This document shows positions 6,604 through 21,016 of a stretch of 51,659 nt of DNA, piece by piece (positions within the stretch are counted from its first letter, which is position 1; every line of letters begins with the position of its first letter). Source of the stretch: Donghicola tyrosinivorans (GTDB lineage: Bacteria > Pseudomonadota > Alphaproteobacteria > Rhodobacterales > Rhodobacteraceae); the NCBI RefSeq assembly GCF_003003355.1, contig NZ_PVTQ01000021.1, positions 1-51,659 on the forward strand, given 5' to 3'. The notes under the pieces were generated by a model. That model made no database searches and was not told the DNA's origin. It saw only the letters and a program-made list of their open reading frames with translations. Made by a program: the position numbers and the translations under genes.

Positions 6604-7170
6604 ATGAAGACTTTGATTGTTGCTGCCGCTCTGGCTCTGACCTGTGCCACTGGTGCCTATGCCGCTTCGCATTCGGAAACCGGCAATCCGATGGTGGGTG
6701 GTGCGCCCATGTTCATGGACAAGAACATCGTCGAGAATGCCGTGAACTCGGCCGATCACACCACGCTGGTTGCCGCAGTACAGGCCGCTGGCCTTGTGGA
6801 TACCCTGCAAAGCGAAGGCCCCTTTACCGTCTTTGCACCGGTGAACAGCGCCTTTGACGCTTTGCCCGCTGGCACCGTGGACACGCTGCTGAAGCCTGAA
6901 AACAAGGATATGCTGACCAAAATCCTGACCGCCCATGTGGTTGCAGGCAATTGGAGCGCCGCTGACATCGTCGCCGCCGCCAAGAGCTCGTCCGATGGGT
7001 TCTACCATTTCAATGCCGTGTCGGGCGATGCGCTGTCTGCGCAAGTCACGCCGTCGGGGAGCGTGTTCATCTTTGATGAAAGCGGCAATGCCGCCGAAGT
7101 CACCACCGCCGATGTCAAACAGTCGAACGGTGTGATCCACGTCATCGATAAAGTGCTGCTGCCGAAGTAA
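6604..7170 (+). CDS. Secreted fasciclin (FAS1) domain protein
   Basis: 188 residues with a clear signal peptide (MKTLIVAAALALTCATGAYA, cut near residue 20). A single FAS1 domain covers about residues 39-187, with TVFAPVNSAFDALPAGTVDTL and the C-terminal NGVIHVIDKVLLP block. FAS1 proteins are periplasmic or surface adhesion-like proteins. GGAGG precedes the start at a slightly long spacing. Stand-alone gene followed by a strong terminator. Confidence 0.92.
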   Translation: MKTLIVAAALALTCATGAYAASHSETGNPMVGGAPMFMDKNIVENAVNSADHTTLVAAVQAAGLVDTLQSEGPFTVFAPVNSAFDALPAGTVDTLLKPENKDMLTKILTAHVVAGNWSAADIVAAAKSSSDGFYHFNAVSGDALSAQVTPSGSVFIFDESGNAAEVTTADVKQSNGVIHVIDKVLLPK

Positions 7171-7192
7171 TCGGCTCGCTCTTGCGAACAAT

Positions 7193-7228
7193 GGCCGTGG
7201 CAGATCCGTTCTGCCGCGGCCTTTTCTT
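7193..7228 (+). terminator. Rho-independent terminator of the FAS1 gene
   Basis: GGCCGTGGCAGA and CTGCCGCGGCC form a long stem around a short loop, followed by TTTTCTT. Confidence 0.85.
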
Positions 7229-7377
7229 ATGAAGCGCTTGTCTTGAACCCTGCGGCTAGCCCATAAAATCAGCGTATTTTATGCATTTTTATCATCGGAC
7301 CGCAAAAGCCATCCGATATTTATTGACTGGATGGTCAAAAACTGTCGATCCTGAAGGTCGGTCCAAGGGGAATTATT

Positions 7378-8484
7378 ATGTCAGACAAGCTGATCACGCA
7401 GTTTACCGGCCTTACCTTCGTTAACCCGTTCATCCTTGCCTCGGCACCTCCCACCGAGAGCAAGCGCAAGATCCTGAAGGCATTTGAGGCCGGATGGGGC
7501 GGGGTTGTCACGAAAACCATCGGCTTGCATCCGGTGGAAAACGTGGCCGGTCCAAAGACGATCTACCAGCGGGCCAGCGAAGAGAAACCCTATGTGTCGC
7601 GCTACAAACGCCCCGACACGGTGTCCCATTCCTCTTGGAACTGGGAACTGATCTCGGACCAGCCGCTGGAACAGTGGCTGCCTGATCTGGAAGAGATCAA
7701 GACCACCTATCCCGACCGGATGCTGATCGGCTCGATCATGGCGGGGGCTGGCGGCGAGGCAGAGATGGAGAACTGGCGCAAACTGGCCCGCGCTTGCGTG
7801 AACGCGGGCTGCGATGCGCTAGAGCTGAACATGTCCTGCCCCCACATGGACCGCAAGGATATGGGCGCCCATATCGCCAACGACGAAGATATCATCCGCG
7901 CGGTTTTGAAGGCCGTCACCAGTGCGGTGGATGTGCCGATCTGGGTGAAACTGACGCCCGCGACCTCGACGTTGGTGGATGCCGCAGGCGCGGCCTATGA
8001 GGCAGGCGCGGCCTCAATATCCTTGTGCAACACCTTCCCCTCTTTGCCCCTGATGGACCCCGAAACCATGAAGTTCGAGGTTGAGGTCGATGGCCTTGTG
8101 ACCTCTGGCGGTTTGGGCGGATTGGCCATTCTGCATCAGGCATTGCAGCGGGTGAACGACATTTCCCGCGCCTATCCGGACAAGGCGATTTCGGGCATCG
8201 GCGGGATCAAGGGCTTCCGCGAGGCGTTCAACTTTATCGTCCACGGGGCGGGCAATTTGCAGGTCTGCACGGCGGCGATGGAAGAGAAGGGCAGCGGCGG
8301 GGTCGGCGTGCAACTGATCCAAGAGCTGACCAGCGATCTGTCGGACTATCTGGACCGCAAGGGCTTTGCCTCGATTGAGGAGTTCCGCGGCGCGGCCCGT
8401 GATCGGGTGGTCGAACACTCAAAAGTCCGCCGCAAGAGCGAGAGCTACAACGGCGGCTATGTCCAAACCGAAGAAACGGTTTAA
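7378..8484 (+). CDS. Dihydropyrimidine-dehydrogenase PreA-like flavoprotein lacking the ferredoxin domain
   Basis: 368 residues with the FMN-binding TIM barrel of the dihydroorotate/dihydropyrimidine dehydrogenase family: FVNPFILASAPPT at the start, the active-site block ELNMSCPHM near 153-161 with the catalytic cysteine, WVKLTP, and SGIGGI near 270. PreA proteins are usually about 410-440 residues and end in two 4Fe-4S clusters; here the tail ends in NGGYVQTEETV with no CxxCxxC motif. No PreT-like partner is adjacent. So it either uses another electron donor or acts on another substrate. It is preceded by AGGGG and followed by a terminator. Confidence 0.82.
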   Translation: MSDKLITQFTGLTFVNPFILASAPPTESKRKILKAFEAGWGGVVTKTIGLHPVENVAGPKTIYQRASEEKPYVSRYKRPDTVSHSSWNWELISDQPLEQWLPDLEEIKTTYPDRMLIGSIMAGAGGEAEMENWRKLARACVNAGCDALELNMSCPHMDRKDMGAHIANDEDIIRAVLKAVTSAVDVPIWVKLTPATSTLVDAAGAAYEAGAASISLCNTFPSLPLMDPETMKFEVEVDGLVTSGGLGGLAILHQALQRVNDISRAYPDKAISGIGGIKGFREAFNFIVHGAGNLQVCTAAMEEKGSGGVGVQLIQELTSDLSDYLDRKGFASIEEFRGAARDRVVEHSKVRRKSESYNGGYVQTEETV

Positions 8485-8497
8485 GCCGGATTAAGAT

Positions 8498-8525
8498 GCG
8501 CCGCCCCTAATCGGGCGGCGCTTTT
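8498..8525. terminator. Bidirectional terminator between the PreA-like gene and operon A
   Basis: GCGCCGCCC and GGGCGGCGC pair around CTAATC, followed by TTTT on the plus strand. It separates the stop at 8484 (+) from the kduD stop at 8529 (-). The stem matches the hairpin at 4933-4955. Confidence 0.8.
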
Positions 8526-8528
8526 CGT

Positions 8529-9257
8529 TTACCTTGACAGCCATCCGCCATCGACGTTCAGGATCGCACCGTGGACGTAGTTTGAGGCGGGTGCAGCCAG
8601 ATAGGTGGCGGTGTCTGCGATGTCGCGGGGATCGCCCCAGCGGCCTGCGGGGATACGCTCCAAAATCGCCTGATTGCGGGCGGGGTCAGCGCGCAGGGCC
8701 TCGGTGTTGTTGGTGGCGATATACCCCGGTGCGATGGCGTTCACGTTGATGCCTTTTGCCGCCCATTCATTCGCCAGCAGCTTGGTCAGACCCGCAACGC
8801 TGTGCTTGGACGCGGTGTAGGACGGCACGCGGATGCCCCCTTGGAACGACAAAAGCGAGGCGATGTTGACGATTTTGCCTGTGCCTTCGCGGGCAAAGAC
8901 CGCCTTGGCAAAGGCCTGACAAGTGAAGAACAGCGCCTTGGCGTTCAGGTCCATCACCGCGTCCCAGTCCTCTTCGGTAAAGTCTACCGCGTCGGCGCGG
9001 CGGATGATGCCTGCGTTGTTCACCAGAATGTCGACCTGACGATCCGCGAAGATATCCTTCGCGGCCATGGGATCGGACAGATCCAGCAGCAGCTCTTCGC
9101 CGCTGCCCATGGCGGCCACGGTCTCGGCGCAGCTGCGGCGGCCTGCGGCGATCACATGGGCTCCGTTTTCCGCCATCGAGACCGCAATCGCTTGACCGAT
9201 GCCTGTGTTGGCGCCGGTCACAAGGGCGGTTTTGCCTGCAAGGGAAAAGCGGCTCAT
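8529..9257 (-). CDS. kduD: 2-dehydro-3-deoxy-D-gluconate 5-dehydrogenase (copy 1)
   Basis: 242 residues, short-chain dehydrogenase. TGANTGIGQ (residues 14-22) binds NAD(H), NNAG is near 80, and the catalytic YTASK is near 147-151 with a serine upstream. KduD interconverts 2,5-diketo-3-deoxygluconate (DKII) and KDG, the last shared step of unsaturated uronate breakdown. The start overlaps the kduI stop by ATGA. It is the last gene of operon A. Its DNA is nearly identical to the copy at 16832-17560; the only protein difference seen is Ser versus Ala at the penultimate residue but one (LSR/LAR). Confidence 0.93.
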   Translation of the reverse strand: MSRFSLAGKTALVTGANTGIGQAIAVSMAENGAHVIAAGRRSCAETVAAMGSGEELLLDLSDPMAAKDIFADRQVDILVNNAGIIRRADAVDFTEEDWDAVMDLNAKALFFTCQAFAKAVFAREGTGKIVNIASLLSFQGGIRVPSYTASKHSVAGLTKLLANEWAAKGINVNAIAPGYIATNNTEALRADPARNQAILERIPAGRWGDPRDIADTATYLAAPASNYVHGAILNVDGGWLSR

Positions 9258-10081
9258 CGCAGATCCTCGGGCTGGATAAAGTCCATGTCGGTGTAATCGA
9301 CGTTATCGCCTGCCATCGCCCAGATGAAGGTATAAGCCCCGATGCCCGCGCCCGAGTGGATCGACCACGGCGGCGAGATCGCGCCCTCTTCGTTGCCGAT
9401 GAAGAGGTGACGGGTCTCCTGCGGCTCGCCCATCAGGTGCAGCACGCGGGATTCAGGGGCCATGCCGAAGTAGAGATACGCCTCCATCCGGCGATCATGG
9501 ATGTGCGAGGGGATCGTGTTCCAGACCGAGCCGTCGTGCAGCGTGGTATAGCCCAAGATCAGCTGGCAGCTTTCCATCACCAGCGGGTGGATGAACTGCT
9601 TGATGGTGCGCTTGTTGCTGGTCTCGCTCGCGCCCATATGGACCTCTTTGCACTCGGCCATGGTGATCAGGCGGGTGGGATAGGCCTGATGGGCAGGGGC
9701 CGAGGTGATGTAGTAGCGGCCCGCGCCGCTGAAAGTCACCGCGCCGGTGCCCATGCCCAGATAGAGGACTTCGCCGTGCTCCAGCGTGTGGGTCTGGCCA
9801 CCCGCAGTGATGGTGCCGGTTTCGCCAATGTTCACAACGCCCATCTCGCGGCGCTCAAGGAAGGTGGCGGTCTTGGTCTCGGCCACCACATCAAGGGTCA
9901 GATCACCCCCCGCAGGCACCGCGCCGCCCATGACGAAACGGTCGTAATGGGTGTAGATCAGGCGGATTTCGCCGTCCTTGAACATGTCCTGGGCCAGGAA
10001 GTTGTCCCGCAGGGCGGCGGTGTCCATGCCCTTGGCGTGCTCGGGGTGAATGGCGTGGCGGGTGGTGACGGTCAGGGTCAT
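9254..10081 (-). CDS. kduI: 5-dehydro-4-deoxy-D-glucuronate isomerase (copy 1)
   Basis: 275 residues from ATG 10081, preceded by AAAGGA. It carries the cupin metal site of KduI: IPSHIHDRRMEAYLYF gives two histidines and a glutamate, and WSIHSGAG gives the final histidine. KduI turns DKI (5-keto-4-deoxyuronate) into DKII in the cytoplasm. It follows dctM after a 23-base gap and overlaps kduD. Copy 2 differs at only a few residues, for example Glu/Asp in HPEHAKG and Gly/Asp in AGGQTH. Confidence 0.93.
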   Translation of the reverse strand: MTLTVTTRHAIHPEHAKGMDTAALRDNFLAQDMFKDGEIRLIYTHYDRFVMGGAVPAGGDLTLDVVAETKTATFLERREMGVVNIGETGTITAGGQTHTLEHGEVLYLGMGTGAVTFSGAGRYYITSAPAHQAYPTRLITMAECKEVHMGASETSNKRTIKQFIHPLVMESCQLILGYTTLHDGSVWNTIPSHIHDRRMEAYLYFGMAPESRVLHLMGEPQETRHLFIGNEEGAISPPWSIHSGAGIGAYTFIWAMAGDNVDYTDMDFIQPEDLR

Positions 10082-10104
10082 AGGCTGGTCCTTTGAGGGG
10101 TGGG

Positions 10105-11403
10105 TCACAGGCCAAGGGCCCGCGGCAGCGCCATTGAGATGGCAGGGACGTAGGTCACCAGCATCAGCACTGCAAAGAGAAGTAGGTAGAAGGGGCCAAG
10201 GGCGCGGATCGCGCGTTCGACCCGAACACCGGCGACACTGGCGCCAACGAACAGGCCGGTGCCAACGGGCGGGGTGATGGTGCCGATCGCAAGGTTGAAC
10301 ACCATGATCGTGCCGAAATGCACCGGATCGACACCCACTTTCTGGGCGATGGGCAGCAGGATCGGGGTAAAGATCAGGATCGCAGGGCCGATGTCCATAA
10401 AGCAGCCAACCACCAAAAGGATCATGTTGATGATCAGCATCACGATGATGGGGTTTTCAGACACGCCTAACACCAGCGCGGTTACGGCTGCGGGAATGCC
10501 AGTGAAGGCCATGGCAAACGATAGGGTCGCCGAGGCCGCCAGCAGCAGCATGATTGTGCCAGTGATCATTGAGGTTTCGATCAAAAAGCGTGGCAGGGCG
10601 CTGATCGGCATGGTCCGGTGGATCAGAAAGGCCAGCGCCATAGTATAAAGGACCGCGATGCCAGAGGCCTCGACCGGTGTGACGATGCCAAAGAGGATGC
10701 CGCCGATGATCAGGACGATCAGCATGAGGCTAGGAATGGCTTGCCACGTGACATTCAGCGCCTCGCGTATCGACGGGCTTGGGGCCAGCGGATAGTTCCG
10801 TCGCTTTGCAATCGCGACTGTCAGGGCCATCATGCCGATGCCCCAAAGGGTGCCCGCCACAGCGCCTGCCATGAACAGGGCTGCAATCGACGTGCCGCCA
10901 GAGATGAGCGAGTAGATGATAAAAGCGGTCGTGGGTGGGATCAGCATGCCCGTGGGCGCAGAGGCAATGTTCACCGCCGCTGCAAAGTCGCGATCATAGC
11001 CTTCTTTGGCCTGAATGGGCACCATGACGCCGCCAATTGACGTGGACGCCGCAATCGCCGAGCCGGAAATGCTGCCGAACAACATGTTGCCCGCGATGTT
11101 TGTCTGCGCCAGCGATCCGGGGATTCGGCCCGCAATCAGCTTGGCAAAGTTCACCAGCCGTAGGGCAATCCCGCCTGAGTTCATCATGACGCCGGAGAGA
11201 ATAAAGAACGGTACAGCCAGCAGGGAAAAGCTGTCCAGCGAGGCGACGATCTTTTGGGCGGCCGTAAAGACGGCCATGTCGAAAGGTAGCACCAGAGCTA
11301 CGGCGGCAAAGGCGGCGGCGACAATCGCCACCGCAAGGGGCAAGCCCAACAGGGCCAATACACCGAAGACGGCAATCAGGATGAACGAGGCTTCTCCGGC
11401 CAT
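10105..11403 (-). CDS. dctM: TRAP transporter large permease (DctM)
   Basis: 432 residues, about 12 hydrophobic segments. Typical DctM blocks are present: PFFILSGVMM, NMLFGSISGSAIAASTSIGGVM, NIASAPTGMLIPPTTAFIIY, and a second-half TPPVGTGLFVGASV. It forms the Na+-driven membrane channel with DctQ. It lies three bases after dctQ, with kduI following after 23 bases. From its operon partners the cargo is probably an oligogalacturonide or a free uronate. Confidence 0.93.
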   Translation of the reverse strand: MAGEASFILIAVFGVLALLGLPLAVAIVAAAFAAVALVLPFDMAVFTAAQKIVASLDSFSLLAVPFFILSGVMMNSGGIALRLVNFAKLIAGRIPGSLAQTNIAGNMLFGSISGSAIAASTSIGGVMVPIQAKEGYDRDFAAAVNIASAPTGMLIPPTTAFIIYSLISGGTSIAALFMAGAVAGTLWGIGMMALTVAIAKRRNYPLAPSPSIREALNVTWQAIPSLMLIVLIIGGILFGIVTPVEASGIAVLYTMALAFLIHRTMPISALPRFLIETSMITGTIMLLLAASATLSFAMAFTGIPAAVTALVLGVSENPIIVMLIINMILLVVGCFMDIGPAILIFTPILLPIAQKVGVDPVHFGTIMVFNLAIGTITPPVGTGLFVGASVAGVRVERAIRALGPFYLLLFAVLMLVTYVPAISMALPRALGL

Positions 11404-11406
11404 GGG

Positions 11407-11919
11407 TCAGTCTCCGGCGGCCACGGCACGTTCTGCCGCGTCGGGCAGATCGCGGGTGCCAGTGATTAAATCGTATAGGTTTAAAAGGCAGTAGAGGATC
11501 ATCAGCGTGCCGCCGACGGGCAGCGCCAGATAGACCCAGCTCATGGGGATTTGCATGACAGAACTGACTTGGCGGGCGGCAATCGCCGTTGCCTTGTATC
11601 CACCGTAGATCAAGGTGACGCTGGCAAAGGCCATCAGACCCAGCGGGACCAGAAATTCCAGCGCTCGTTTGCGCCAGCCACTGCTGAATTCCCGCAGCAG
11701 GTCCACACACATATGAGTGCCTTGGCCTGTGGCATAGGCCGCCCCAAGAAGGGACAGCCAAATCACACCGTAGCGCAGGATTTCCTCGGAATAGGTCGAG
11801 GGCGCATTCAGGGCGTAGCGGCTAAGCACTTGCCATGTCAGCACCCCGACCAGCGCCAGAAGGAGGGCTGCGCACAGCCCCCCAACCACCCGATCCAGAA
11901 GATCACGCAGGTGCTTCAT
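11407..11919 (-). CDS. dctQ: TRAP transporter small permease (DctQ)
   Basis: 170 residues with four membrane segments. The DctQ signature region appears as VLTWQVLSRYALNAPSTYSEE near residues 25-45 and WLSLLGAAYATGQGTHMCVD near 53-72. It bridges the binding protein and DctM. Its ATG directly abuts the dctP stop codon. Confidence 0.92.
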   Translation of the reverse strand: MKHLRDLLDRVVGGLCAALLLALVGVLTWQVLSRYALNAPSTYSEEILRYGVIWLSLLGAAYATGQGTHMCVDLLREFSSGWRKRALEFLVPLGLMAFASVTLIYGGYKATAIAARQVSSVMQIPMSWVYLALPVGGTLMILYCLLNLYDLITGTRDLPDAAERAVAAGD

Positions 11920-12900
11920 TTACTTGGCCGGTGCCACAGCGCGGATGGCTTCGAACACGGCGTATTTCTCGGGCTCGGCCTTCAGTTCATCATACATCGG
12001 GGCCACGGCTGCCTGGAATTCGGAGACATCAGGGTAGAGGAATTCGATGCCGAACTGCTCTTCGCATTCCTTTTTGGCCGCGTCGATCGAGGCACCCCAA
12101 GCAGCTTTGTGGAACTCGGTGGATTCCTTGGCGGCTTCCATCACGGCGGTGCGGTGTTCGTCCGACAGGCGGTCCAAGGTGGCGCTGCTGATCAGCATGA
12201 TGTCGGGGATGCGGGTGTGCATGTCATAGGACATGTACTTGCTGACCTCGCCATGGCGGGCGATGGTTAGGGCGAATTCGTTGTTCTCTGCCCCATCCAG
12301 AACCCCCTGCTGCAGGGATGTGTAGACCTCGGCCTGCGACATGGCCACGGGGGTCGCTCCCAGCATTTCGACCATCTTGATCGAGGTCGGGCTTTGCAGG
12401 ACACGGAACTTCAGGCCTTTGAGGTCGGCGACGCCATTGATCGGCTTGTTGGCGGTGTAAAAGCTGCGCGCACCGCTATTGTAGTAGGTCAGCCCCACGA
12501 AACCGGTATCGCGGCTGGCCTCATAGATCGGTCCCATGATGTCGGCGTTGTCCATCGCCGCGTAGAAATGCTCTTCGTTGTCAAAGAGGTAGGGCATCGG
12601 GAAGACGCCGTAGACGGGGGTGAAACTCTCCAAGAGGCCGCCCGAAACCTTGGTCATGTCCAGACTGCCCGCCTGTACCATCTCGACCAGTTCGCGTTCG
12701 CCGCCAAGTTGCCCGTCGGGGAAATAGGTGACGGTTACTTCGCCGCCGGTCTTTTCCGACACCAACTCGCCGAATTTCTGCATTGCCTCGACGGTCGGAG
12801 TGGCGTTGCTGGCATAGGCAAAGCGCAGGGTCTCGGCCATAGCGGGGGTGACGGCGATGGTGGCAGCCAAAAAGGCCAGCGTGGATAGGGGTTTATTCAT
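11920..12900 (-). CDS. dctP: TRAP transporter substrate-binding protein (DctP)
   Basis: 326 residues from ATG 12900, preceded by GGAGGAG. Signal peptide MNKPLSTLAFLAATIAVTPAMA. The mature protein shows the DctP pattern: KFGELVSEKTGGEVTVTYFPDGQLGGERELVEMVQAGSLDM (shown here in family terms, residues about 39-79), DLKGLKFRVLQSP and a conserved arginine there that salt-bridges a carboxylate ligand. This fits an acidic sugar as cargo. First transporter gene after GH105. Confidence 0.92.
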   Translation of the reverse strand: MNKPLSTLAFLAATIAVTPAMAETLRFAYASNATPTVEAMQKFGELVSEKTGGEVTVTYFPDGQLGGERELVEMVQAGSLDMTKVSGGLLESFTPVYGVFPMPYLFDNEEHFYAAMDNADIMGPIYEASRDTGFVGLTYYNSGARSFYTANKPINGVADLKGLKFRVLQSPTSIKMVEMLGATPVAMSQAEVYTSLQQGVLDGAENNEFALTIARHGEVSKYMSYDMHTRIPDIMLISSATLDRLSDEHRTAVMEAAKESTEFHKAAWGASIDAAKKECEEQFGIEFLYPDVSEFQAAVAPMYDELKAEPEKYAVFEAIRAVAPAK

Positions 12901-12941
12901 TGGTTCTCTCCTCCTGAAACCAAAAAATTTCTGAAAACGGG

Positions 12942-14066
12942 TTAGATGTAGGATCGTAGGAATTCCGACAGGCAAAGCATGGCCATCGCCTGCCCATAGG
13001 GCATCGAGGTCAGGGGGATCTGACGGTAGTAGTTCAGGTCGCTGCCCATTGCGGTGCCGAAGGACACCTGCTGTAGCTCTCCTTCGGGGTTGATGTTGTC
13101 GATCACACCTTTCACGGCACTTTCGGCCACAGGCAGGTAGTCGGCGGGCAGATAGCGTTTGCGCACGGCCTTCATCAGACCATAGGCGAAGCCTGCGGTG
13201 GCCGAGGCCTCAAGGTAGCTATCAGGGTCATCGAGCAGCGTGTGCCACAGCCCGCTGGTGTGTTGGCACCCTTTCAGCGTCCGCGCCTGCCGCCCCAGCA
13301 GGGAGAGCAAGTGGCGGCGGATCGGATCGTTGGGGGCAAGGTCCAGCAGCTCGATGAACTCGGGGATGGCGATGGTGATCCAGCTGTTTCCACGCGCCCA
13401 AAGCGCGCGGGCAAAGTTGTGATCGCCGTCAAAGGTCCACCCGTGAAACCACAAGCCTGATGAGTTATCAGACAAGTACTGCGCGTGGACTAGAAACTGG
13501 TATTTCGCCTCTTCCACATACTCGGGGCGGTTCAGAACCAGTCCGATTTTGGCCAGCGGCATGACACTCATCATCAAGGTGTCGTCCCACATCTGCTGGT
13601 CGTTCACGCTGTTGTAGACGATGTGTTGTAGACCGTCTTCGTGGGTGCGGGGCATTTCGTGCATGACCCACTGGGCCCATGCTTCCAAGTAAGGCACCCA
13701 GACCGGATTGGGGTCTTGTTCGTAAAGGCATGCCAGCGTCAGGAAAGGGGCAACCGTGTTGATATTCTTGGTGGGGGTGCCCTCGGATAAACGCGCCTCA
13801 AACCAATCAGTTATGATCTTAAGCGCGTCCTTGTTGCCGGTCTGCTTCCAGTAGTTCAACAAGCCATAAAGGCCAATGCCGTGGGTCCATTCCCAACCGG
13901 CCCATCCCTTGGTGTCGATGACGCGGCCATCCTCTAGCCGCAGCAGAAATTCGCCCGTTTCGTCGGTGATATTGATCAGGTTATCGGTCAGCCGGTCGAT
14001 CAGTTCGATCACTCCGGCGCGATTGATAAAGCGATCCTTCTGCCGCAAAAGCGGGTGCATGGTCAT
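12942..14066 (-). CDS. GH105 unsaturated galacturonyl/rhamnogalacturonyl hydrolase
   Basis: 374 residues from ATG 14066, preceded by GGAGGAG. It is an (alpha/alpha)6-barrel hydrolase of the GH88/GH105 type: WEWTHGIGLYGLLNYW near 58-73, NSVNDQQMWDDTLMMSVMPLA near 150-170 with the catalytic aspartate pair, RALWARGNSWITIAIPE near 219-235, and EASATAGFAYGLMKA near 287-301. These enzymes hydrate the 4,5-unsaturated end residue of pectin-lyase products. No signal peptide is visible, so it acts in the cytoplasm. It is the first gene of operon A and diverges from the IclR regulator. Confidence 0.88.
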   Translation of the reverse strand: MTMHPLLRQKDRFINRAGVIELIDRLTDNLINITDETGEFLLRLEDGRVIDTKGWAGWEWTHGIGLYGLLNYWKQTGNKDALKIITDWFEARLSEGTPTKNINTVAPFLTLACLYEQDPNPVWVPYLEAWAQWVMHEMPRTHEDGLQHIVYNSVNDQQMWDDTLMMSVMPLAKIGLVLNRPEYVEEAKYQFLVHAQYLSDNSSGLWFHGWTFDGDHNFARALWARGNSWITIAIPEFIELLDLAPNDPIRRHLLSLLGRQARTLKGCQHTSGLWHTLLDDPDSYLEASATAGFAYGLMKAVRKRYLPADYLPVAESAVKGVIDNINPEGELQQVSFGTAMGSDLNYYRQIPLTSMPYGQAMAMLCLSEFLRSYI

Positions 14067-14103
14067 GGTCAGAACTCCTCCGGAACGGCCTTTACTATTT
14101 TCG

Positions 14104-14262
14104 GAATGCCGTTTCGAAAATTAAGAATGCACAGTCCAAATATTTAATCAAGCCCTATCTTGTCATTGGGGTTTCTGCTAGTTGTCGTATGAATATCAGG
14201 GTGTTCGGGCGCTCAAATGGTCGCCTTGACTTAATTTCCCAAGAAAAACAGAATGCTGTTCC
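14104..14262. promoter_or_regulatory. Paired IclR-type operator sites between GH105 and the IclR gene
   Basis: GAATGCCGTTTC (14104-14115) and GAATGCTGTTCC (14251-14262) differ at two pyrimidines and flank the divergent promoters. Each has a GAA...TTC inverted pattern as IclR/KdgR boxes do. The first lies 38 bases before the GH105 start, the second 22 bases before the regulator start. Confidence 0.5.
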
Positions 14263-14283
14263 AGAATTTTCAGGACACCGACC

Positions 14284-15096
14284 ATGGCTCAGAAACCACA
14301 AAAAACCGAAAACGCCGCCGCTGTTCTCAAGGTCTTTGCTGTTCTCGAATCGCTGGTTGATGAAAAACGCGTTGGTTTGGCCGAGCTGGCGCAGACCGCG
14401 ATGACGTCAAAGACCACGGCGCACCGGCTGCTGCAGACCATGATTGAGCTTGGATATGTCGAACAGGACCCCGAGACCGAGAAATACAGTCTGACGCTAA
14501 AACTGTTCTCTCTGGGCGCGCGGACGCTGTCGGGGCAGGCGGATTTGCTGCGGGTCGCCGACCGCGAAATGGGAAAACTGTCCCGCGCTACGGGCGAGTC
14601 CATCAATCTGGGGGTTCTGGACGGCACCGATCATCGGGTGGCTTACATCCACAAATATGACTCGGCTTATAGTCTCTCGATGCATTCGACCTTGGGCAAA
14701 CGGAACCCGATTCATAGCACTTCGTTGGGTAAGGCCCTGTTGGCGTGGCGCAGCGAGGACGAGATCAATGACCGTCTTGCCCAGATGGATCTGGTCAAAC
14801 TGGCCCCGAAGACAATCACTGATACTGAAGCCTTGCGATCAGAACTGATCCGAATTCATGCTCAGGGTTACGCCGAAGAGATTGAGGAATCCGAGGCAGG
14901 CGTGCGCTGTATGGCAACACCGGTTCTGGACCACGCGGGCCGGTCAGTGGGGGCTATTTCCATCGCCTTCCCTCTGTTCCGCTTCGATGAGGCGAAAAAG
15001 CCTGAGTATGTGGCGCTGCTACGTGAAGCCGGTCGCGCAGCCTCAGCTTCGCTGGGATTCACCGGAGAGATCGGCGCGGGTGCGATAACCGTTTAA
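14284..15096 (+). CDS. IclR-family regulator, probable KdgR-like
   Basis: 270 residues. N-terminal winged helix (AAVLKVFAVLESL, then GLAELAQTAMTSKTTAHRLLQ, residues about 12-56) and a C-terminal effector domain with SLGKALLAW near 145-153 and GVRCMATPVLDHAGRSVGAI near 206-225. Divergent from operon A. KdgR of this family senses KDG and represses pectin genes in enterobacteria; the same logic is plausible here, with the paired boxes upstream as targets. Assignment to KdgR is inference from context. Confidence 0.85.
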   Translation: MAQKPQKTENAAAVLKVFAVLESLVDEKRVGLAELAQTAMTSKTTAHRLLQTMIELGYVEQDPETEKYSLTLKLFSLGARTLSGQADLLRVADREMGKLSRATGESINLGVLDGTDHRVAYIHKYDSAYSLSMHSTLGKRNPIHSTSLGKALLAWRSEDEINDRLAQMDLVKLAPKTITDTEALRSELIRIHAQGYAEEIEESEAGVRCMATPVLDHAGRSVGAISIAFPLFRFDEAKKPEYVALLREAGRAASASLGFTGEIGAGAITV

Positions 15097-15127
15097 CCTA
15101 AGGCAGCAGTGGTCCGGCCTTGGCTGT

Positions 15128-16681
15128 TCACGGCTGATCACCCTGAAAAACCTCTTGATAGATCGCCGCAAAATCTTCGGCCTCTACATCGGTCAGCATG
15201 GCAAACTCTGCCCGCCGTGCCCGCTTTGAAAGCTGGCCGTTGTTCTGCTTGAGGAAGTTGAACAAGAGATCGATCATGGAGGCGGGCATATCGACATGCG
15301 CCTCGATACGGGATCGGAACAGATCATAGCGCCGGAGGAAGTCTGCTTCTTCGGGTAAGTCATGGGTGATCGTGCGTTCCACGCATTGAAACAGGAATTC
15401 CGCTTGGGGCGTTGCGTCGAAGAAACGGTAAAAGTCGCCCGTATCATTCAACACCTCAACATTCATCTTGGCTGTCGGGCGCCAGTCGATGTGGGGCAAG
15501 GCCCGCTTAGAGTAGCTTTCCAGCACCGCACGATAGTCAAGAATGCGGTCAAGAATGGCCGAAGAGACCGGAAAGGCCAAGCCCGGCGGATTAAAGCCGC
15601 GGGCGCTTAGGGTGTGGTGGATCAGGTAGCGGTGGATGCGTCCGTTGCCGTCTTCGAACGGGTGGATATAGATGAAGCCGAAGGCCAGAATGGTGGCTGC
15701 GATCACCGGGTCCAGATCGGGCGCATGGTCCTGATCAAAGGCGATCATGCCACGGATCAGATCGGGCAAATCATTTGGCCGCGCGCTGATATGGTCCGGC
15801 AGGGGCATCCGCGTGTCTTGCTCATGCTCGCCGACAAAGCCGCCATCCTTTCGAAACCCCATCTTGATAAAGCGGTTGTCTTTGCCAAGGACGATCTGTT
15901 GCAGACGCAGGAATTCGGTCTCGTTCAGGGGGTATTTTCCGGCCTCACCGATGGCTTTGCCCCAGCGCTGGATGCGGTCATGCGGAGGGGCTTCGCCCTC
16001 GATCGCGTAGCTGGATTTTGAATCCTTCAGCAAAAGGAAGGCTGCGGTGCGGGCCAAGAGGCTGCCGGAAATCTTCCCAATGATCGCCTGCGCCTGCGCA
16101 TCCAGTTTCATCTGCACAAATTGGTCCAAGGTGTCTGACCGGCGCACCATAGGGCAAAAATCTGGCGTGCCTGGCAGGTTGTTGCGGACACGGTGGCGGG
16201 TCGAAGTCGTTCCCTTGCCCGCCCATTGCATTTTGGTGTCGACGATGTCGGCATAGGTTGCTGATTTCGCGTCCGGCAAGTCCAGCGCCCGCCCCAGCAA
16301 CCATTCATATAAGAACCAAATCCGCCGCATATAGGCGCTGGTCGGCTTGGCTGCGATCATTGCCTCAAGATCCGACGGTTCAACCGCCTGAAACAAGCGT
16401 TTTAGTACCGCCAGATCAAGGCCCTCATATTTCAGGGCAAAGGTCAGATGTCCTTCCAGCGTCGCGGCGGGGGCGTGCCTTGGTGTGTAGATGCGCCAAC
16501 CTTCGGCTTCAAACACCTTGTGGCGTGACCCTATCGCGCACATGGTTAGTGGATGCGGGACGCGCAGATCATACGCCTCGATCAAGGCTGCGTAGCCAGA
16601 GGGCACCGCAGGCTCTGGCAAGCGCATTTCCCGAAAAACGCTGACGGCGTCTGAAAAACGGTGATGATCGCGGGCATCCAT
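15128..16681 (-). CDS. Fic-domain AMP-transferase with N-terminal inhibitory motif
   Basis: 517 residues from ATG 16681; a GTG at 16690 would add three. The Fic active site HPFEDGNGRIHR lies near residue 340, with the catalytic histidine and phosphate-binding GNGR. An upstream SYAIEGE near 228-234 fits the (S/T)xxxE(G/N) inhibitory helix, so the enzyme is class II, autoinhibited from its own N-terminal side. The C-terminal part looks like a winged helix (LSKRARRAEFAML). It is unrelated in function to the pectin operons on both sides. Its upstream region holds a run of palindromes that may be its own operator. Confidence 0.87.
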   Translation of the reverse strand: MDARDHHRFSDAVSVFREMRLPEPAVPSGYAALIEAYDLRVPHPLTMCAIGSRHKVFEAEGWRIYTPRHAPAATLEGHLTFALKYEGLDLAVLKRLFQAVEPSDLEAMIAAKPTSAYMRRIWFLYEWLLGRALDLPDAKSATYADIVDTKMQWAGKGTTSTRHRVRNNLPGTPDFCPMVRRSDTLDQFVQMKLDAQAQAIIGKISGSLLARTAAFLLLKDSKSSYAIEGEAPPHDRIQRWGKAIGEAGKYPLNETEFLRLQQIVLGKDNRFIKMGFRKDGGFVGEHEQDTRMPLPDHISARPNDLPDLIRGMIAFDQDHAPDLDPVIAATILAFGFIYIHPFEDGNGRIHRYLIHHTLSARGFNPPGLAFPVSSAILDRILDYRAVLESYSKRALPHIDWRPTAKMNVEVLNDTGDFYRFFDATPQAEFLFQCVERTITHDLPEEADFLRRYDLFRSRIEAHVDMPASMIDLLFNFLKQNNGQLSKRARRAEFAMLTDVEAEDFAAIYQEVFQGDQP

Positions 16682-16693
16682 GAAATGCACTTA

Positions 16694-16757
16694 CTTTCCA
16701 TGAAAAAGGGTTTCTATTTCACCTTTTCATGAAAAGTAGTGATTTTCTATGAATTTC
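16694..16757. promoter_or_regulatory. Cluster of TTTTCATGAAAA-like palindromes upstream of the Fic gene
   Basis: Three similar sites occur in 64 bases: CTTTCCATGAAAAAG (16694-16708), the perfect palindrome CTTTTCATGAAAAG (16723-16736) and TTTTCTATGAATTTC (16743-16757). A weaker copy, CCATGAAATG, overlaps the start codon. The spacing of about 20-30 bases suggests a cooperative operator for autoregulation. Confidence 0.55.
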
Positions 16758-16778
16758 TTTGTGGGCTGGAGGCCCGAG

Positions 16779-16814
16779 CGTACGCGCAGGATCGGGTTGG
16801 CCCCCGCGCGTACG
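16779..16814. other. Hairpin at the end of operon B
   Basis: CGTACGCGC (16779-16787) and GCGCGTACG (16806-16814) form a perfect 9-base stem 17 bases beyond the kduD copy-2 stop. No T-run follows on either strand, so it may stabilise the 3' end rather than act as a classic terminator. Confidence 0.45.
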
Positions 16815-16831
16815 GAAATCATGGGTGCCGT

Positions 16832-17560
16832 TTACCTTGCCAGCCAGCCGCCATCCACGTTCAGGATCGCGCCGTGGACGTAGTTTGAGGCTGGTGCAGC
16901 CAGATAGGTGGCGGTGTCCGCGATATCGCGGGGATCGCCCCAGCGGCCTGCGGGGATACGCTCCAAAATCGCCTGATTGCGGGCGGGGTCAGCGCGCAGG
17001 GCCTCGGTGTTGTTGGTGGCGATATACCCCGGTGCGATGGCGTTCACGTTGATGCCTTTTGCGGCCCATTCATTCGCCAGCAGCTTGGTCAGACCCGCAA
17101 CGCTGTGCTTGGACGCGGTGTAGGACGGCACGCGGATGCCCCCTTGGAACGACAAAAGCGAGGCGATGTTGACGATTTTGCCTGTGCCTTCGCGGGCAAA
17201 GACCGCCTTGGCAAAGGCCTGACAAGTGAAGAACAGCGCCTTGGCGTTCAGGTCCATCACCGCGTCCCAGTCCTCTTCGGTAAAGTCTACCGCGTCGGCG
17301 CGGCGGATGATGCCTGCGTTGTTCACCAGAATGTCGACCTGACGATCCGCGAAGATATCCTTCGCGGCCATGGGATCGGACAGATCCAGCAGCAGCTCTT
17401 CGCCGCTGCCCATGGCGGCCACGGTCTCGGCGCAGCTGCGGCGGCCTGCGGCGATCACATGGGCTCCGTTTTCCGCCATCGAGACCGCAATCGCTTGACC
17501 GATGCCTGTGTTGGCGCCGGTCACAAGGGCGGTTTTGCCTGCAAGGGAAAAGCGGCTCAT
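16832..17560 (-). CDS. kduD: 2-dehydro-3-deoxy-D-gluconate 5-dehydrogenase (copy 2)
   Basis: 242 residues with the same SDR motifs as copy 1 (TGANTGIGQ, NNAG, YTASK). It is the last gene of operon B and overlaps kduI copy 2 by ATGA. DNA differences from copy 1 cluster in the last 230 bases of the gene; the rest looks identical by eye. Both copies are intact, so both operons can complete the pathway to KDG on their own. Confidence 0.93.
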   Translation of the reverse strand: MSRFSLAGKTALVTGANTGIGQAIAVSMAENGAHVIAAGRRSCAETVAAMGSGEELLLDLSDPMAAKDIFADRQVDILVNNAGIIRRADAVDFTEEDWDAVMDLNAKALFFTCQAFAKAVFAREGTGKIVNIASLLSFQGGIRVPSYTASKHSVAGLTKLLANEWAAKGINVNAIAPGYIATNNTEALRADPARNQAILERIPAGRWGDPRDIADTATYLAAPASNYVHGAILNVDGGWLAR

Positions 17561-18384
17561 CGCAGATCCTCGGGCTGGATAAAGTCCATGTCGGTGTAAT
17601 CGACGTTATCGCCTGCCATCGCCCAGATGAAGGTATAAGCCCCGATGCCTGCGCCCGAGTGAATTGACCACGGCGGCGAGATCGCGCCCTCTTCGTTGCC
17701 GATGAAGAGGTGACGGGTCTCCTGCGGCTCGCCCATCAGGTGCAGCACGCGGGATTCAGGGGCCATGCCGAAGTAGAGATACGCCTCCATCCGGCGATCA
17801 TGGATGTGCGAGGGGATCGTGTTCCAGACCGAGCCGTCGTGCAGCGTGGTATAGCCCAAGATCAGCTGGCAGCTTTCCATCACCAGCGGGTGGATGAACT
17901 GCTTGATGGTGCGCTTGTTGCTGGTCTCGCTCGCGCCCATATGGACCTCTTTGCACTCGGCCATGGTGATCAGGCGGGTGGGATAGGCCTGATGGGCAGG
18001 GGCCGAGGTGATGTAGTAGCGGCCCGCGCCGCTGAAAGTCACCGCGCCGGTGCCCATGCCCAGATAGAGGACTTCGCCATGTTCCAGCGTGTGGGTCTGG
18101 CCATCGGCAGTGATGGTGCCGGTCTCGCCAATGTTTACAACGCCCATCTCGCGGCGCTCAAGGAAGGTGGCGGTCTTGGTCTCGGCCACCACATCAAGGG
18201 TCAGATCGCCCCCCGCCGGCACCGCGCCGCCCATGACGAAACGGTCGTAGTGGGTGTAGATCAGGCGGATTTCGCCGTCCTTGAACATGTCTTGCGCAAG
18301 GAAGTTGTCACGCAGGGCGGCGGTGTCCATGCCCTTTGCGTGGTCTGGGTGAATGGCGTGGCGGGTGGTGACGGTCAGGGTCAT
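17557..18384 (-). CDS. kduI: 5-dehydro-4-deoxy-D-glucuronate isomerase (copy 2)
   Basis: 275 residues, metal-binding IPSHIHDRRMEAYLYF and WSIHSGAG as in copy 1. AAAGGA precedes ATG 18384. It follows the GH105 gene after 23 bases. The first 300 bases of the gene carry most of the silent differences from copy 1, while the rest is almost identical. Confidence 0.93.
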   Translation of the reverse strand: MTLTVTTRHAIHPDHAKGMDTAALRDNFLAQDMFKDGEIRLIYTHYDRFVMGGAVPAGGDLTLDVVAETKTATFLERREMGVVNIGETGTITADGQTHTLEHGEVLYLGMGTGAVTFSGAGRYYITSAPAHQAYPTRLITMAECKEVHMGASETSNKRTIKQFIHPLVMESCQLILGYTTLHDGSVWNTIPSHIHDRRMEAYLYFGMAPESRVLHLMGEPQETRHLFIGNEEGAISPPWSIHSGAGIGAYTFIWAMAGDNVDYTDMDFIQPEDLR

Positions 18385-18407
18385 AGGGTCGTCCTTTGAG
18401 GGGTGTT

Positions 18408-19481
18408 TCAGGCGTGAGCGGCGGCTTGAATTCGTTCGGTCAAGGCGTAGGCGAAGGGGCCGACACCTTTGATATCGTCGGGTTGAATGCGTTCGGTCAC
18501 GTAGTATTCGGGCGTGCCGTCTCGATAAACTCCGTCAAATCCGCCAAGCCCTGCGACACAGCAAATGTCGGTCAGTTGGGTGCGGCCATCGATAGGGGAC
18601 AACTTGCCTTCAAGGGCTGTCAGGGCGCGTAGGCCTTGGGCGTTGTCGGGGATCAGGCCCAGACGTGCGCCCTTGAGGATGGCGTAAGAGAACATGGCAC
18701 TGGCCGAGCTTTCCTCATAGTTGCCCTTCAGGTCAGGCATGCACATCACCTGATGCCAGAGGCCAGAGGGTTGCTGTTGTGCGATCACCGACTCCAGCAG
18801 GGCGCGGGCAGCCTCGCGCGGGGCGCGGGGATCGTCGGGCAGCAGTTCCACCAGATCAACCAGCGCCATCGCAAGCCAGCCGACAGCGCGGCCCCAAACA
18901 GCGGGCGAAAGGCCGGTTTCCGGATCGGCCCAAGGCTGCTGGCGGGCATCATCATAGCCGTGGATGTAAAGACCGGCGGGGCCTTTGGTGAAGGCCAGTG
19001 CGGTCTGAACTTGGGCCAAAGCGTCTTGGACCAGCGCGGCATCGCCTCGGCGCAGACCGTATTCCAACTGAAACGGCAGACCCATATAGAGGCCGTCTAG
19101 CCAGACCTGATGGGGATAGCGCTGTTTGTGCCAGTAGTTGCCCGCATCAATGCGGGGGTGGCTGGCCAACTGGCCCGCCAGCACATCGGCGGCGGCTTCA
19201 TAGCGGGCATCGCCAGTGGTGTCGGCCAGATGGAACAGGCTGCGGCCCGACAGGATGTTGTCGATGTTATACTCACCCACCTCATAGTCGCGGATTTGGC
19301 CTTCGGGGGTGACTTGCGCATCTACCAGACGGCGCAGATGGTCCAGCCAACGCGCCTCGCCTGTGGTGCGGTGCAGGCGCACCAGCGCCAGATACAGCAG
19401 GCCGTCCTCATAGCACCAGCGCCCGTCTTTATAGGCGCGGTAGTCGCGGGCATAGGCATCAAAGTAGTCAAGCAAGTCCAT
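18408..19481 (-). CDS. GH105 unsaturated rhamnogalacturonyl/galacturonyl hydrolase (YteR-like)
   Basis: 357 residues. GH105 landmarks: WCYEDGLLYLALVRL near 22-36, YPHQVWLDGLYMGLPFQLEY near 121-140 with the catalytic Asp in WLDGLYM, AVWGRAVGWLAMALVDLVELLP near 194-215, and EESSASAMFSYAILKGARLG near 258-277. It is only distantly like the other GH105 in this window and closer to the YteR/YesR type. No signal peptide. The start is TAATG, overlapping the GH28 stop, so translation is coupled. Confidence 0.9.
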   Translation of the reverse strand: MDLLDYFDAYARDYRAYKDGRWCYEDGLLYLALVRLHRTTGEARWLDHLRRLVDAQVTPEGQIRDYEVGEYNIDNILSGRSLFHLADTTGDARYEAAADVLAGQLASHPRIDAGNYWHKQRYPHQVWLDGLYMGLPFQLEYGLRRGDAALVQDALAQVQTALAFTKGPAGLYIHGYDDARQQPWADPETGLSPAVWGRAVGWLAMALVDLVELLPDDPRAPREAARALLESVIAQQQPSGLWHQVMCMPDLKGNYEESSASAMFSYAILKGARLGLIPDNAQGLRALTALEGKLSPIDGRTQLTDICCVAGLGGFDGVYRDGTPEYYVTERIQPDDIKGVGPFAYALTERIQAAAHA

Positions 19482-21016
19482 TAGTCTGTCCTTTCCGAAA
19501 GCAGGGTCAGCCCGCCTTCTTCGATCGGAATGTCGGTGTCCGCGATGATCTGCGCATACTCATGCGCGATGCCCGCGTGGCGCAGGGGGCGGATGTGATC
19601 GGCCATAACGGGGGCCGTAGGAATGGCATCGGGGTTCAGATCCTGCACGGTGATGCGGGTCAGGTGGATTGGGCCGATGGGCTGTTCAGGCAGGCCGATG
19701 AAGGCCCCAAGCGCGTGGGATATTCCGGTGATCGAGACGTCTGATACCTCGATCCGGCCGATCTGCGGGGTCAGGTGCGTGACAGGCGCGGGATCGCGGG
19801 TCTGCACCCAATCGTCGTGGCCATCGTGATCGCAGTAGTAAAAGGCGTTGGCGCTGAAGGCGGTCTCTACATCTGTCATCGCCACATCGCGGAAGGTGAT
19901 GCGATCAATCCTGCCACCCCGCCCGCGGCGGGTCTTGAGGCGCAGGCCGCGATCGGTTCCCCGCATTTCACAGGCGGCAACGGTGATGTCGGTGATGTCG
20001 CCGCTCATCTCTGATCCAAGGACAACGCCGCCGTGGCCAGCCTCCATCAAGCAATGAGAGATGGTGATGTCGCGGGTGGCGGTCAGGTGATCCTCTTCGC
20101 CCGCATCGCCGCGCTTGCCTGCTTTGATGGCGATGCAGTCGTCGCCCACGGAAAAGCGCACGCCGGTCAGGCGCACGTTCTGGCACATTTCGGGGTTGCA
20201 GCCGTCGGTGTTGGGGCTGTCATCGGGGGCGCTGATGTGCAGGCCCGCGATGGTCAGGTCCTGGCAGCCCTGCGGGTGCACGGTCCATGAGGGCGCGTTG
20301 CGCACGGCGAACCCGATCAACTGCGTCTGTTGGCAGTTCACCAGATGCAGCCCACGGGGGCGGTGGGCGCCTTGGCGGGTCTCTTTCGGCCAGGTCCACC
20401 AGTCGCCGCGATCCCCGCCGCCTTCCAAAGCGCCGGGGCCAGCGATGGTCAGACAGTTGGTGCCCACAGCGTAAAGCGGTGCGGCAAAGCAATCGGCGGG
20501 CAGCCCTTCCCACGATCCAAGCATCTTACCGGCGTGGTTGCGGGCGGGCAGGATCGGCCAACCGGTCCGATCTGCGGGGGCCTTCAACGTTCCTTTCAGC
20601 CACAGGGTCAGATCGCTGCGCAGGGCGACGGGGGCGCTAATCCACGTTCCTTCGGGGATCAGCACCGTGCCGCCCTTGGGCGCGGCGCCGATGGCGCGGA
20701 TGATCGCGCGGGCATTCTCGGCGGCGTGTTCGGCGGTGTCGGGGCCATCTGCGACCGCGCCATGATCGGCGATGTTCACCAGACCGGCGCAGGCGGGCGT
20801 CTGGAACGACAGCACCTTACCCTGCACCATCAGCGTGTAATCGGTATCGGGCCGCAGATCATCCACCACGGTCAGGGCGGTACGGGTCTGGCCCTGACGC
20901 ACCATGCCCGCGCCGCTCAAGGTCCATTGGACTTCTGCGGGCAGGGCATAGCGCGCCCCGTCCGGAGCATAGCAAAAGGCGATTGTACGCACCGAAAGTG
21001 CGGTCAGCGAAAGCAT
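19481..21016 (-). CDS. GH28 exo-polygalacturonase-like enzyme, probably cytoplasmic
   Basis: 511 residues from ATG 21016; an ATG at 21040 is an alternative. An N-terminal fibronectin-III-like region (residues 1-85) precedes the right-handed beta-helix. GH28 active-site blocks are all present: SPNTDGCNPEMC, SVGDDCIAIKAGKRG, AGHGGVVLGSEMSG and GLRLKTRRGRGG. The layout (FN3 plus beta-helix) matches exo-acting polygalacturonases that release short units from oligogalacturonides. No signal peptide is visible. Operon B places it after the ABC importer, so it probably trims imported oligomers. Confidence 0.9.
   Translation of the reverse strand: MLSLTALSVRTIAFCYAPDGARYALPAEVQWTLSGAGMVRQGQTRTALTVVDDLRPDTDYTLMVQGKVLSFQTPACAGLVNIADHGAVADGPDTAEHAAENARAIIRAIGAAPKGGTVLIPEGTWISAPVALRSDLTLWLKGTLKAPADRTGWPILPARNHAGKMLGSWEGLPADCFAAPLYAVGTNCLTIAGPGALEGGGDRGDWWTWPKETRQGAHRPRGLHLVNCQQTQLIGFAVRNAPSWTVHPQGCQDLTIAGLHISAPDDSPNTDGCNPEMCQNVRLTGVRFSVGDDCIAIKAGKRGDAGEEDHLTATRDITISHCLMEAGHGGVVLGSEMSGDITDITVAACEMRGTDRGLRLKTRRGRGGRIDRITFRDVAMTDVETAFSANAFYYCDHDGHDDWVQTRDPAPVTHLTPQIGRIEVSDVSITGISHALGAFIGLPEQPIGPIHLTRITVQDLNPDAIPTAPVMADHIRPLRHAGIAHEYAQIIADTDIPIEEGGLTLLSERTD

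Follow-up and report, generated by a model that had tools for sequence, protein, structure and literature searches.

How can two copies of one gene pair, each closing a different operon, be identical in the middle and different at the ends? The question is raised by a 51,659-nucleotide stretch of Donghicola tyrosinivorans DNA (contig NZ_PVTQ01000021.1), hereafter the window. A BLAST comparison of the window with itself revealed one direct repeat of 1577 bp at an offset of 8303, in which positions 8526-10102 (copy 1, or A) match positions 16829-18405 (copy 2, or B), both on the minus strand, with 98.16% identity, 29 mismatches, and no gaps. The limits of the homology block are almost exactly those of the kduI-kduD pair; comparison of the leaders showed that the block also includes a 21-bp leader with the ribosome-binding site, and it extends 3 bp beyond the kduD stop. 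In copy A, kduD (8529-9257, minus strand) encodes 2-dehydro-3-deoxy-D-gluconate 5-dehydrogenase (TIGR01832 equivalog, 365.3 bits; cut-off 338.85), and kduI (9254-10081, minus strand) encodes 5-dehydro-4-deoxy-D-glucuronate isomerase (NF002091 equivalog, 394.3 bits; cut-off 250); these curated cut-offs were applied to copy A only. On the same strand, copy B has kduD at 16832-17560, one residue unlike copy A, and kduI at 17557-18384, two residues unlike. No further full copy was found in the 61 contigs of the genome. BLAST and Pfam agree with the initial annotation, which described a 1553-base kduI-kduD pair present twice in the same orientation, each time at the end of a different uptake operon.

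Operon A (10105-14066, minus strand; Pfam), in which copy A is last, carries a GH88 gene (12942-14066) and the TRAP genes dctP (11920-12975), dctQ (11407-11919), and dctM (10105-11403). Operon B (18408-25402, minus strand; Pfam), in which copy B is last, codes for two ABC permeases (24386-25402 and 23486-24382), an ATPase (22378-23484), a solute-binding protein (21084-22349), a GH28 polygalacturonase (19481-21148) that passes the PglA model NF051860 (772 bits; cut-off 600), and a GH88 protein (18408-19481). Two genes lie between operon A and copy B. One encodes an IclR-family regulator (14284-15096, plus strand; PF01614, PF09339) passing the KdgR equivalog model (NF011671, 295.5 bits; cut-off 275), and the other a Fic-domain protein of 520 aa (15128-16690, minus strand; PF02661) that was not found in the three congeners compared. 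A mobile repeat beside the Fic gene was ruled out, the 138 bp separating it from copy B being single in the genome. A terminator-like hairpin (8498-8521; nine G-C pairs, −24 kcal/mol in its flank), with its T-run on the plus strand, separates kduD of copy A from a converging dihydroorotate-dehydrogenase-like gene.

The coding part of the pair (1553 bp) contains 27 mismatches; 25 are at third codon positions, and 24 of those are silent. Three amino acids differ (KduI E14D, KduI G94D, and KduD S241A). In copy-1 coordinates, the mismatches fall at 8537-8622 (seven), 8760 (one), 9347, 9359, and 9362, and 9776-10087 (18, including two in the leader). Two cores on the minus strand show no differences and are probable conversion tracts: core 1 of 586 bp (8761-9346; 17064-17649 in copy B) and core 2 of 413 bp (9363-9775; 17666-18078 in copy B). 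They are divided by a 16-bp island (9347-9362, minus strand) whose three silent differences suggest separate or patchy tracts, and a third identical stretch of 137 bp occupies 8623-8759. The diverged edges, on the minus strand, are the kduI 5' end (9776-10102), with 18 differences (the leader accounts for two) and 9 of 58 fourfold sites changed, and the kduD 3' end (8529-8622), with seven differences and 5 of 18 fourfold sites changed. The copy alignment therefore bears out the clustering of mismatches at both ends around an identical middle that had been noticed at the outset, with limits only a few bases away from those first given.

At fourfold sites the copies differ in 0/176 positions of the cores (95% upper bound 1.7%) and in 14/76 of the edges, a divergence at least about 10 times higher; this comparison omits the island (2/4) and pair positions 1322-1459 (1/27). 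The outer half of the pair holds 24 of the 27 coding differences, against 49-59% in five between-species comparisons. The 27 differences were also placed at random, 20,000 times in each of three pools: all sites, sites variable in the four sequences, and sites at which two congeners (or the copies) differ. The 999 bp taken up by the two longest observed gaps was not attained once in any pool. Fisher tests of cores against edges gave 1.2e-11 over variable sites and 2e-8 over fourfold sites, values that are optimistic because the core limits were taken from the same data. An even spread along the repeat would have spoken against conversion; it is excluded by the placement trials and the outer-half share. 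Of the differences that could be polarised, 8 are derived in A and 7 in B, and therefore neither copy is decaying.

An overlapping code or a structure in the core could in principle place its DNA or RNA under selection and so keep the middle identical in independent old copies, and antisense open frames do cover both cores. This explanation has almost nothing left to it, since the two congeners differ at 61/586 sites of core 1 and 40/413 of core 2, and a congener and the window differ at up to 84/586 sites of core 1. Constraint on the core was accordingly ruled out, the congeners diverging normally there. It is also very improbable that an assembler wrote one consensus over the central parts of two repeats that in reality differ there. 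The identical cores are longer than usual short reads and the genome is a 61-contig draft, but if the cores had diverged as much as the edges, about 32 fourfold differences would be expected, and copies so unlike are normally assembled separately, as happened with the edges and the three-base island. The draft state of the assembly was counted against the conversion reading.

We consider, with a probability of about 0.8, that the two kduI-kduD cassettes, each forming the last two genes of another operon, stay alike through non-reciprocal homologous recombination (gene conversion). More than one event is likely, because a single tract over both cores needs three later mutations within 16 bp (P ~0.0006); the repeated conversion first proposed finds its support in this island. 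The same picture of identical core and diverged edges would arise if a recent full-length duplication, or one full-length conversion, had been followed by exchange with other strains in which the outer parts of one copy, or of both, were substituted along with the adjoining operon DNA, with no partial conversion at all. Exchange between lineages may indeed have touched the ends, since the branching of the edge tree is not that of the host, and the comparison of one genome per species cannot separate strain exchange from conversion within a genome. We nevertheless judge this course of events unlikely: it requires separate exchanges ending within kduI and within kduD, it leaves the 16-bp island unexplained, and with import into a single copy the polarised differences should pile up on one side, whereas they are split evenly.

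The relatives bear on the age of the copies. The GH88-kduI junction of operon B and copy 2 is common to the window and Donghicola mangrovi (G2 in the trees), and the dctM-kduI junction of operon A and copy 1 is common to the window and a congeneric MAG (G3); the gap at both junctions is 22-23 nt. Copies A and B are 98.3% identical to each other and 87-89% identical to the congeners, the MAG (89%) being a little closer to both than D. mangrovi is (87%). Trees of kduI-kduD were built with 8 outgroup loci picked from 80. The whole-pair tree is ((A,B),(G2,G3)), with A+B at 99/99.8, and grouping with the positional partner is rejected (A+G3, p 0.0007; B+G2, p 1.8e-5). Over the whole pair, each copy following its own positional partner was thus ruled out; over the whole length the copies are closest to each other and not each nearer a different relative. 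Copies that are 98% alike yet 87-89% identical to relatives, without positional grouping, fit concerted evolution. Relatives on plasmids were discarded, as the 20 records reached 60-80% identity at most.

Individual segments gave other groupings. In the edge tree, A and B go with G3 (99/98), G2+G3 is rejected (p 0.016), A+B reaches just 75/72, and A+G3 is not rejected (p 0.28). In the kduI tree without A, B+G2 is not rejected (p 0.14). In the core at pair positions 736-1321, A and B are placed outside G2+G3 (100/98.8). At the kduD 3' end (pair positions 1322-1553), A and B go with the MAG (92/92), and without A, B+G2 is rejected (p 0.019). A conversion from A to B at this end was dropped as a proposal once rooted host trees had placed the window outside the other congeners; import into D. 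mangrovi accounts for the segment groupings equally well. The disagreement among the edge tree, the whole-pair tree, and the kduI tree without A was counted against the conversion reading.

The host order was obtained from rooted trees, with rpoB unavailable as a species marker since it was not found in the MAG. In the parE tree the other three congeners group to the exclusion of the window (92/96) and window+G2 is rejected (p 0.025); gyrB gives the same position with weaker support (69/84; window+G2, p 0.17), and its positions 1+2 leave the order unsettled, which was counted against the conversion reading. The window thus lies outside G2 and G3 in the host tree too, and therefore the cassette follows species, not position, as concerted evolution predicts. 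An earlier proposal, that copy B does not group with D. mangrovi although its host does, came from unrooted gyrB/parE counts and was rejected, as the rooted trees put the window outside. The core placement of A and B outside G2+G3, unlike the edges, could suggest that homologous recombination brought a foreign allele into one copy, from which conversion carried it over to the other. We find this quite improbable: with the same order in the rooted host tree the core needs no foreign source, and outside the genus no compared locus exceeds 79% identity to core 736-1321.

From the edges, with 14/76 fourfold sites changed, it follows that the copies are older than the cores suggest, and from the junctions both positions probably predate the split of the congeners. 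Of the initial claim that conversion joined two older copies, the first point stands, the copies being older than the cores would indicate; an origin before the species split is less sure and relies on the junctions. The main alternative on age keeps conversion and makes the copies younger than the species: a cassette single in the ancestor of the genus was duplicated in the lineage of the window after the split, and conversion later cleaned the middle only. This is a possibility to be taken seriously, if not the one we favour. The whole-pair tree matches the rooted host order, and the edge fourfold divergence between copies (14/76) is lower than that between species at the same sites (18/71 to 26/72). 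Against it, each of the two junctions is found in the window and one congener, so one of them must have arisen twice or been exchanged between lineages. A tree in species order is equally expected from duplication after the split, and this was counted against the conversion reading. A loop-out of the 8.3 kb between the repeats, with loss of operon A, is only possible: D. mangrovi has operon B, a single kduI-kduD, and no operon A, the layout that a loop-out would leave, and ancestral absence of operon A accounts for it equally well.

For gene conversion between the cassettes, the following mechanism may be proposed. RecA-dependent repair would occasionally copy an internal tract from one cassette into the other. 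An event reaching the end of the homology would not be completed, so tracts would seldom take in the last 100-300 bp, and the ends would therefore be homogenised less often than the middle. This would have taken a minimum of two tracts, or a single patchy one. Any benefit would probably lie in both operons feeding one pair of enzymes, but conversion would happen without selection. The available text of PMC5485169 describes such a model for Salmonella tuf, with a processivity of ~0.998 and abortion at the ends of homology. When we simulated it, patterns at least as extreme as ours appeared in 18-29% of comparable samples, against 0-2.3% without the end effect and 0/20,000 without conversion; these ranges cover 17 of 30 settings, those with 100 or more comparable samples; 13 settings with fewer are not counted. 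In the portions of the literature found, the end-abort rule has so far been inferred from selected Salmonella tuf mutants. We suggest, tentatively, that the pair could be a natural record of this rule, with silent divergence rising toward the homology ends; should both positions be older than the split, homogenisation of the cassette would have proceeded independently in the congeners, two of which would later have lost one copy.

In the family survey, a KduI match at the set limit was present in 78 of 394 genomes, and 10 had two matches; the search scored up to six protein candidates and up to two DNA candidates per genome. Both copies were at least 99% identical to the query only in the genome of the window, and in the 393 other genomes no second copy was a close match to the query. 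The pattern was seen once and therefore has no independent repeat; homogenised copies in several species, as in recurrent concerted evolution (PMC6053082), were not found. In two of the other nine two-copy genomes the copies were compared directly: one pair had 71% DNA identity over 373 bp plus a 24-bp match, and the other had no DNA match. The literature search returned kduI/kduD papers without the term "gene conversion"; among the matches listed there was no Rhodobacter case, and nothing of use for Donghicola and pectin.

Gene conversion is a known process, here in ordinary metabolic genes, and the case is ordinary in kind. It offers a clean example of homogenised catabolic cassettes that are neither rRNA nor tuf. 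It is also a caution: trees built from the genes of such cassettes can mask the history of the operons, and simple recombination could remove an operon that has the cassette on either side. The type A isomerase-reductase clusters (PMC12838403) have the gene order and enzymes of kduI-kduD here; the available part of that paper is a survey of cluster types in different phyla, in which conversion between two copies of the same genome is not discussed. The ammonia-oxidation operons of Nitrosomonadales (PMC6053082) are likewise multi-gene metabolic units near-identical within a genome, and their paralogues resemble each other more than they do the orthologues. They are recurrent, in 8 of 8 species analysed, whereas kduI-kduD is homogenised in one species and comprises only the last two genes of otherwise unrelated operons. 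The tuf genes are highly expressed and important for growth, and they show concerted evolution in 29 orders (PMC6053082); unlike them, kduI-kduD is a two-gene catabolic cassette in direct orientation, 8.3 kb apart, alike only in 1 of 394 family genomes. The resemblance to tufA/tufB of Salmonella and other Proteobacteria, as given in the available texts, lies in two near-identical chromosomal copies in different contexts, kept so by homologous recombination (PMC5485169, PMC8262849, PMC6053082). The tract behaviour modelled for tuf in the accessible part of PMC5485169 (processivity ~0.998, abortion at the ends) reproduces the kduI-kduD pattern. A divergence profile of this shape, identical in the middle and diverged at both ends, lends itself to comparison with a conversion model whose kinetics are published.

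Comparison of the window with itself by BLAST showed a single long direct repeat, 8526-10102 (copy A) and 16829-18405 (copy B), of 1577 bp with 29 mismatches and no gaps; no BLAST similarity between the copies was found outside this block. The repeat comprises the minus-strand genes kduI and kduD, a 21-bp leader with a ribosome-binding site, and 3 bp past the kduD stop. The copy A proteins exceeded the curated KduI and KduD cut-offs, and the genome had no third full kduI-kduD copy. The repeat and the operon annotation agree with the initial annotation, in which the 1553-bp pair occurs twice in the same orientation, each time ending a different uptake operon.

Operon A, ended by copy A, encodes a GH88-family hydrolase (12942-14066) and the TRAP transporter genes dctP, dctQ, and dctM. 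A regulator of the IclR type, divergently oriented and passing the KdgR model, lies beside it, and between this regulator and copy B is a Fic-domain gene (15128-16690, 520 aa). The Fic gene was found in none of three congeners (the contig of one, a MAG, stops at that place); matches of 46-64% identity occurred in 5 of the 40 other genomes searched in all. Operon B, ended by copy B, encodes an ABC sugar transporter, a GH28 polygalacturonase, and a second GH88-family hydrolase. Presumably both operons supply unsaturated uronates to the same enzymes, KduI and KduD. The operon A hydrolase passes the NCBIfam beta-galactosidase BglB model (525.5 bits, cut-off 420) and that of operon B fails it (84.5 bits), which counts against a simple substrate call; the two may act on different substrates.

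The copies differ at 27 of 1553 coding positions (25 third positions, 24 silent changes, three amino acid differences). These differences are concentrated at both ends, and the interior holds identical cores of 586 and 413 bp separated by a 16-bp island with three silent changes; another identical stretch of 137 bp adjoins the kduD end of the repeat. The two-gap sum of 999 bp was reached in none of 20,000 random placements in each of three pools, including ones restricted to sites known to vary, so the impression of diverged ends around an identical middle holds. The outer half of the pair contains 24 of the 27 differences, compared with 49-59% in between-species comparisons. With the island (2/4) and pair positions 1322-1459 (1/27) left out of both classes, 4-fold sites differed at 0/176 in the cores and 14/76 in the edges; at the edge rate, the cores would have shown about 32 differences.

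Conversion tracts in Salmonella tuf genes are described as starting anywhere, with a processivity of ~0.998, and aborting at the end of homology (Paulsson et al., 2017; PMC5485169). We simulated two 1577-bp copies under mutation and tuf-type conversion (processivities 0.997, 0.998, and 0.999; five rates), counting samples with 22-36 differences; 13 of the 30 settings yielded too few of these and were excluded. The model takes mutation as uniform along the block and disregards mismatch repair. When tracts aborted at the ends, 18-29% of samples were at least as extreme as the window in both gap sum and outer-half share (eight settings), versus 0-2.3% when tracts were simply truncated there (nine settings); none of the 20,000 simulated without conversion attained either value. 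Internal tracts would be copied between the cassettes and those reaching the end of homology would abort, leaving the ends less homogenised. A clean middle would also result from one recent conversion event acting on older copies, but the three differences in the 16-bp island between the cores have a probability of about 0.0006 under such an event. The island therefore points to at least two tracts, or to a single patchy one, in line with the repeated conversion proposed earlier. In Salmonella, recombination between repeated genes is reported to depend on RecA and to occur each generation in a few cells per million (PMC8262849), so special machinery is unnecessary here.

The relatives compared were three congeners: Donghicola mangrovi B5-SW-15, the MAG, and a third genome (G001). 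The copies differ from each other by 1.7% and from D. mangrovi or the MAG by 11-13%. At the same edge 4-fold sites species differ at 18/71 to 26/72, so the edges of the copies (14/76) have reached roughly half to three quarters of the divergence seen between species. Between species, too, no part varies more than the kduD 3' end, and this edge by itself would therefore be weak evidence; the same does not apply to the kduI 5' edge. D. mangrovi and the MAG are furthest apart at the kduD 3' end (pair positions 1401-1553), with 25 differences in 100 bp followed by 12 in 53 bp. Their outer-half share, 59%, is the highest of the five between-species comparisons; such a pattern would be compatible with their ancestor having had an older, homogenised pair.

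D. mangrovi has operon B, a single kduI-kduD, and then the gene found at 3.8 kb in the window; a close operon A is absent. The MAG carries the regulator, operon A, and kduI-kduD together on a 9.5-kb contig, and a close operon B was not found in this 89% complete genome. In G001, kduD has a match at 77%, with no kduI beside it within the 40 kb examined. The GH88B-kduI junction is common to copy B and D. mangrovi, and the dctM-kduI junction to copy A and the MAG, with 22-23 nt between the genes in each case. Among 80 named loci, only D. mangrovi has GH88B immediately before kduI, and only the MAG and locus L070 have there a dctM that resembles operon A's at 77% or more. The flank downstream of kduD is unlike in all four contexts compared; in the MAG the following gene (L146, 6612-7640), which we take to resemble the proline racemase family, is oriented toward kduD. 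In two Neomegalonema records (L074, L091) the pair seems split, the best kduD-like gene (61-62%) lying ~7 kb from kduI on the opposite strand.

The whole-pair tree joined copy A with copy B (99/99.8) and D. mangrovi with the MAG, and the positional partners were rejected (copy A with the MAG, p 0.0007; copy B with D. mangrovi, p 1.8e-5). Host trees were rooted with Tritonibacter and Paracoccus replicons (parE) or rhizobial replicons (gyrB). parE placed the window as sister to the other three congeners (92/96; window with D. mangrovi rejected, p 0.025); gyrB gave the same position more weakly (69/84; p 0.17), and its positions 1+2 did not settle it. All four host trees rejected window plus MAG. 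The whole-pair tree agrees with the host tree, so the cassette tracks species and not operon position. This is the prediction of concerted evolution if both positions are older than the split, the reading we favour. Duplication of a single ancestral cassette later in the window's lineage, our second choice, yields the same species-order tree, but it requires one of the two shared junctions to have arisen twice or been exchanged. The divergent edges indicate that the two copies are older than their cores suggest, as proposed earlier. That they also predate the species split is less sure: the shared junctions favour it, and the species-order tree fits it and later duplication alike.

Segments of the pair conflict. 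Core 736-1321 matches the host order (D. mangrovi with the MAG, 100/98.8). The edge tree groups both copies with the MAG (99/98) and rejects D. mangrovi with the MAG (p 0.016); copies A and B join at 75/72 in that tree, and copy A with the MAG is not rejected (p 0.28). The signal comes mostly from kduD 1322-1553 (copies and MAG, 92/92), where, without copy A, copy B with D. mangrovi is rejected (p 0.019); in kduI without copy A it is not (p 0.14). Either copy B once acquired operon-A-type sequence in that segment or the D. mangrovi end was imported. No direction of conversion is readable in the cores.

If the repeats recombined with each other, 8303 bp would be lost, comprising one cassette, operon A, the regulator, and the Fic gene, and operon B would be left with one cassette. 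The D. mangrovi layout is of this type, yet it also lacks the 4957-8500 block at that place, and matches to the block genes sit on different congener contigs; the comparison thus does not demonstrate deletion. This block beside copy A (tauE, gntR, fasciclin, and a dihydroorotate-dehydrogenase-like gene) is not together in the congeners. In D. mangrovi an adh gene directly adjoins kduD; in the window, the hairpin after adh (about 4932-4955) is nearly identical over 24 bp to that beside copy A (8498-8521). Past copy B kduD, 16736-16830 forms a strong GC-rich inverted repeat (-33 kcal/mol) without a clear T-run, in a 138-bp spacer that occurs once in the genome. An rve (integrase core) type transposase (43246-44064) lies near mannose-1-phosphate guanylyltransferase, phosphomannomutase, and glycosyltransferase-run genes.

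KduI had a match at the set limit in 78 of 394 family genomes and two matches in ten, and only in the window's genome were both at least 99% identical to the query. The copies were compared directly in two of the nine other two-copy genomes: the first gave 71% DNA identity over 373 bp and a 24-bp match, the second no DNA match. In the library searched, no paper linked kduI or kduD to gene conversion. Prokaryotic genes known to evolve in concert include tuf and amo (PMC6053082), and kduI-kduD is probably a further example of this known phenomenon.
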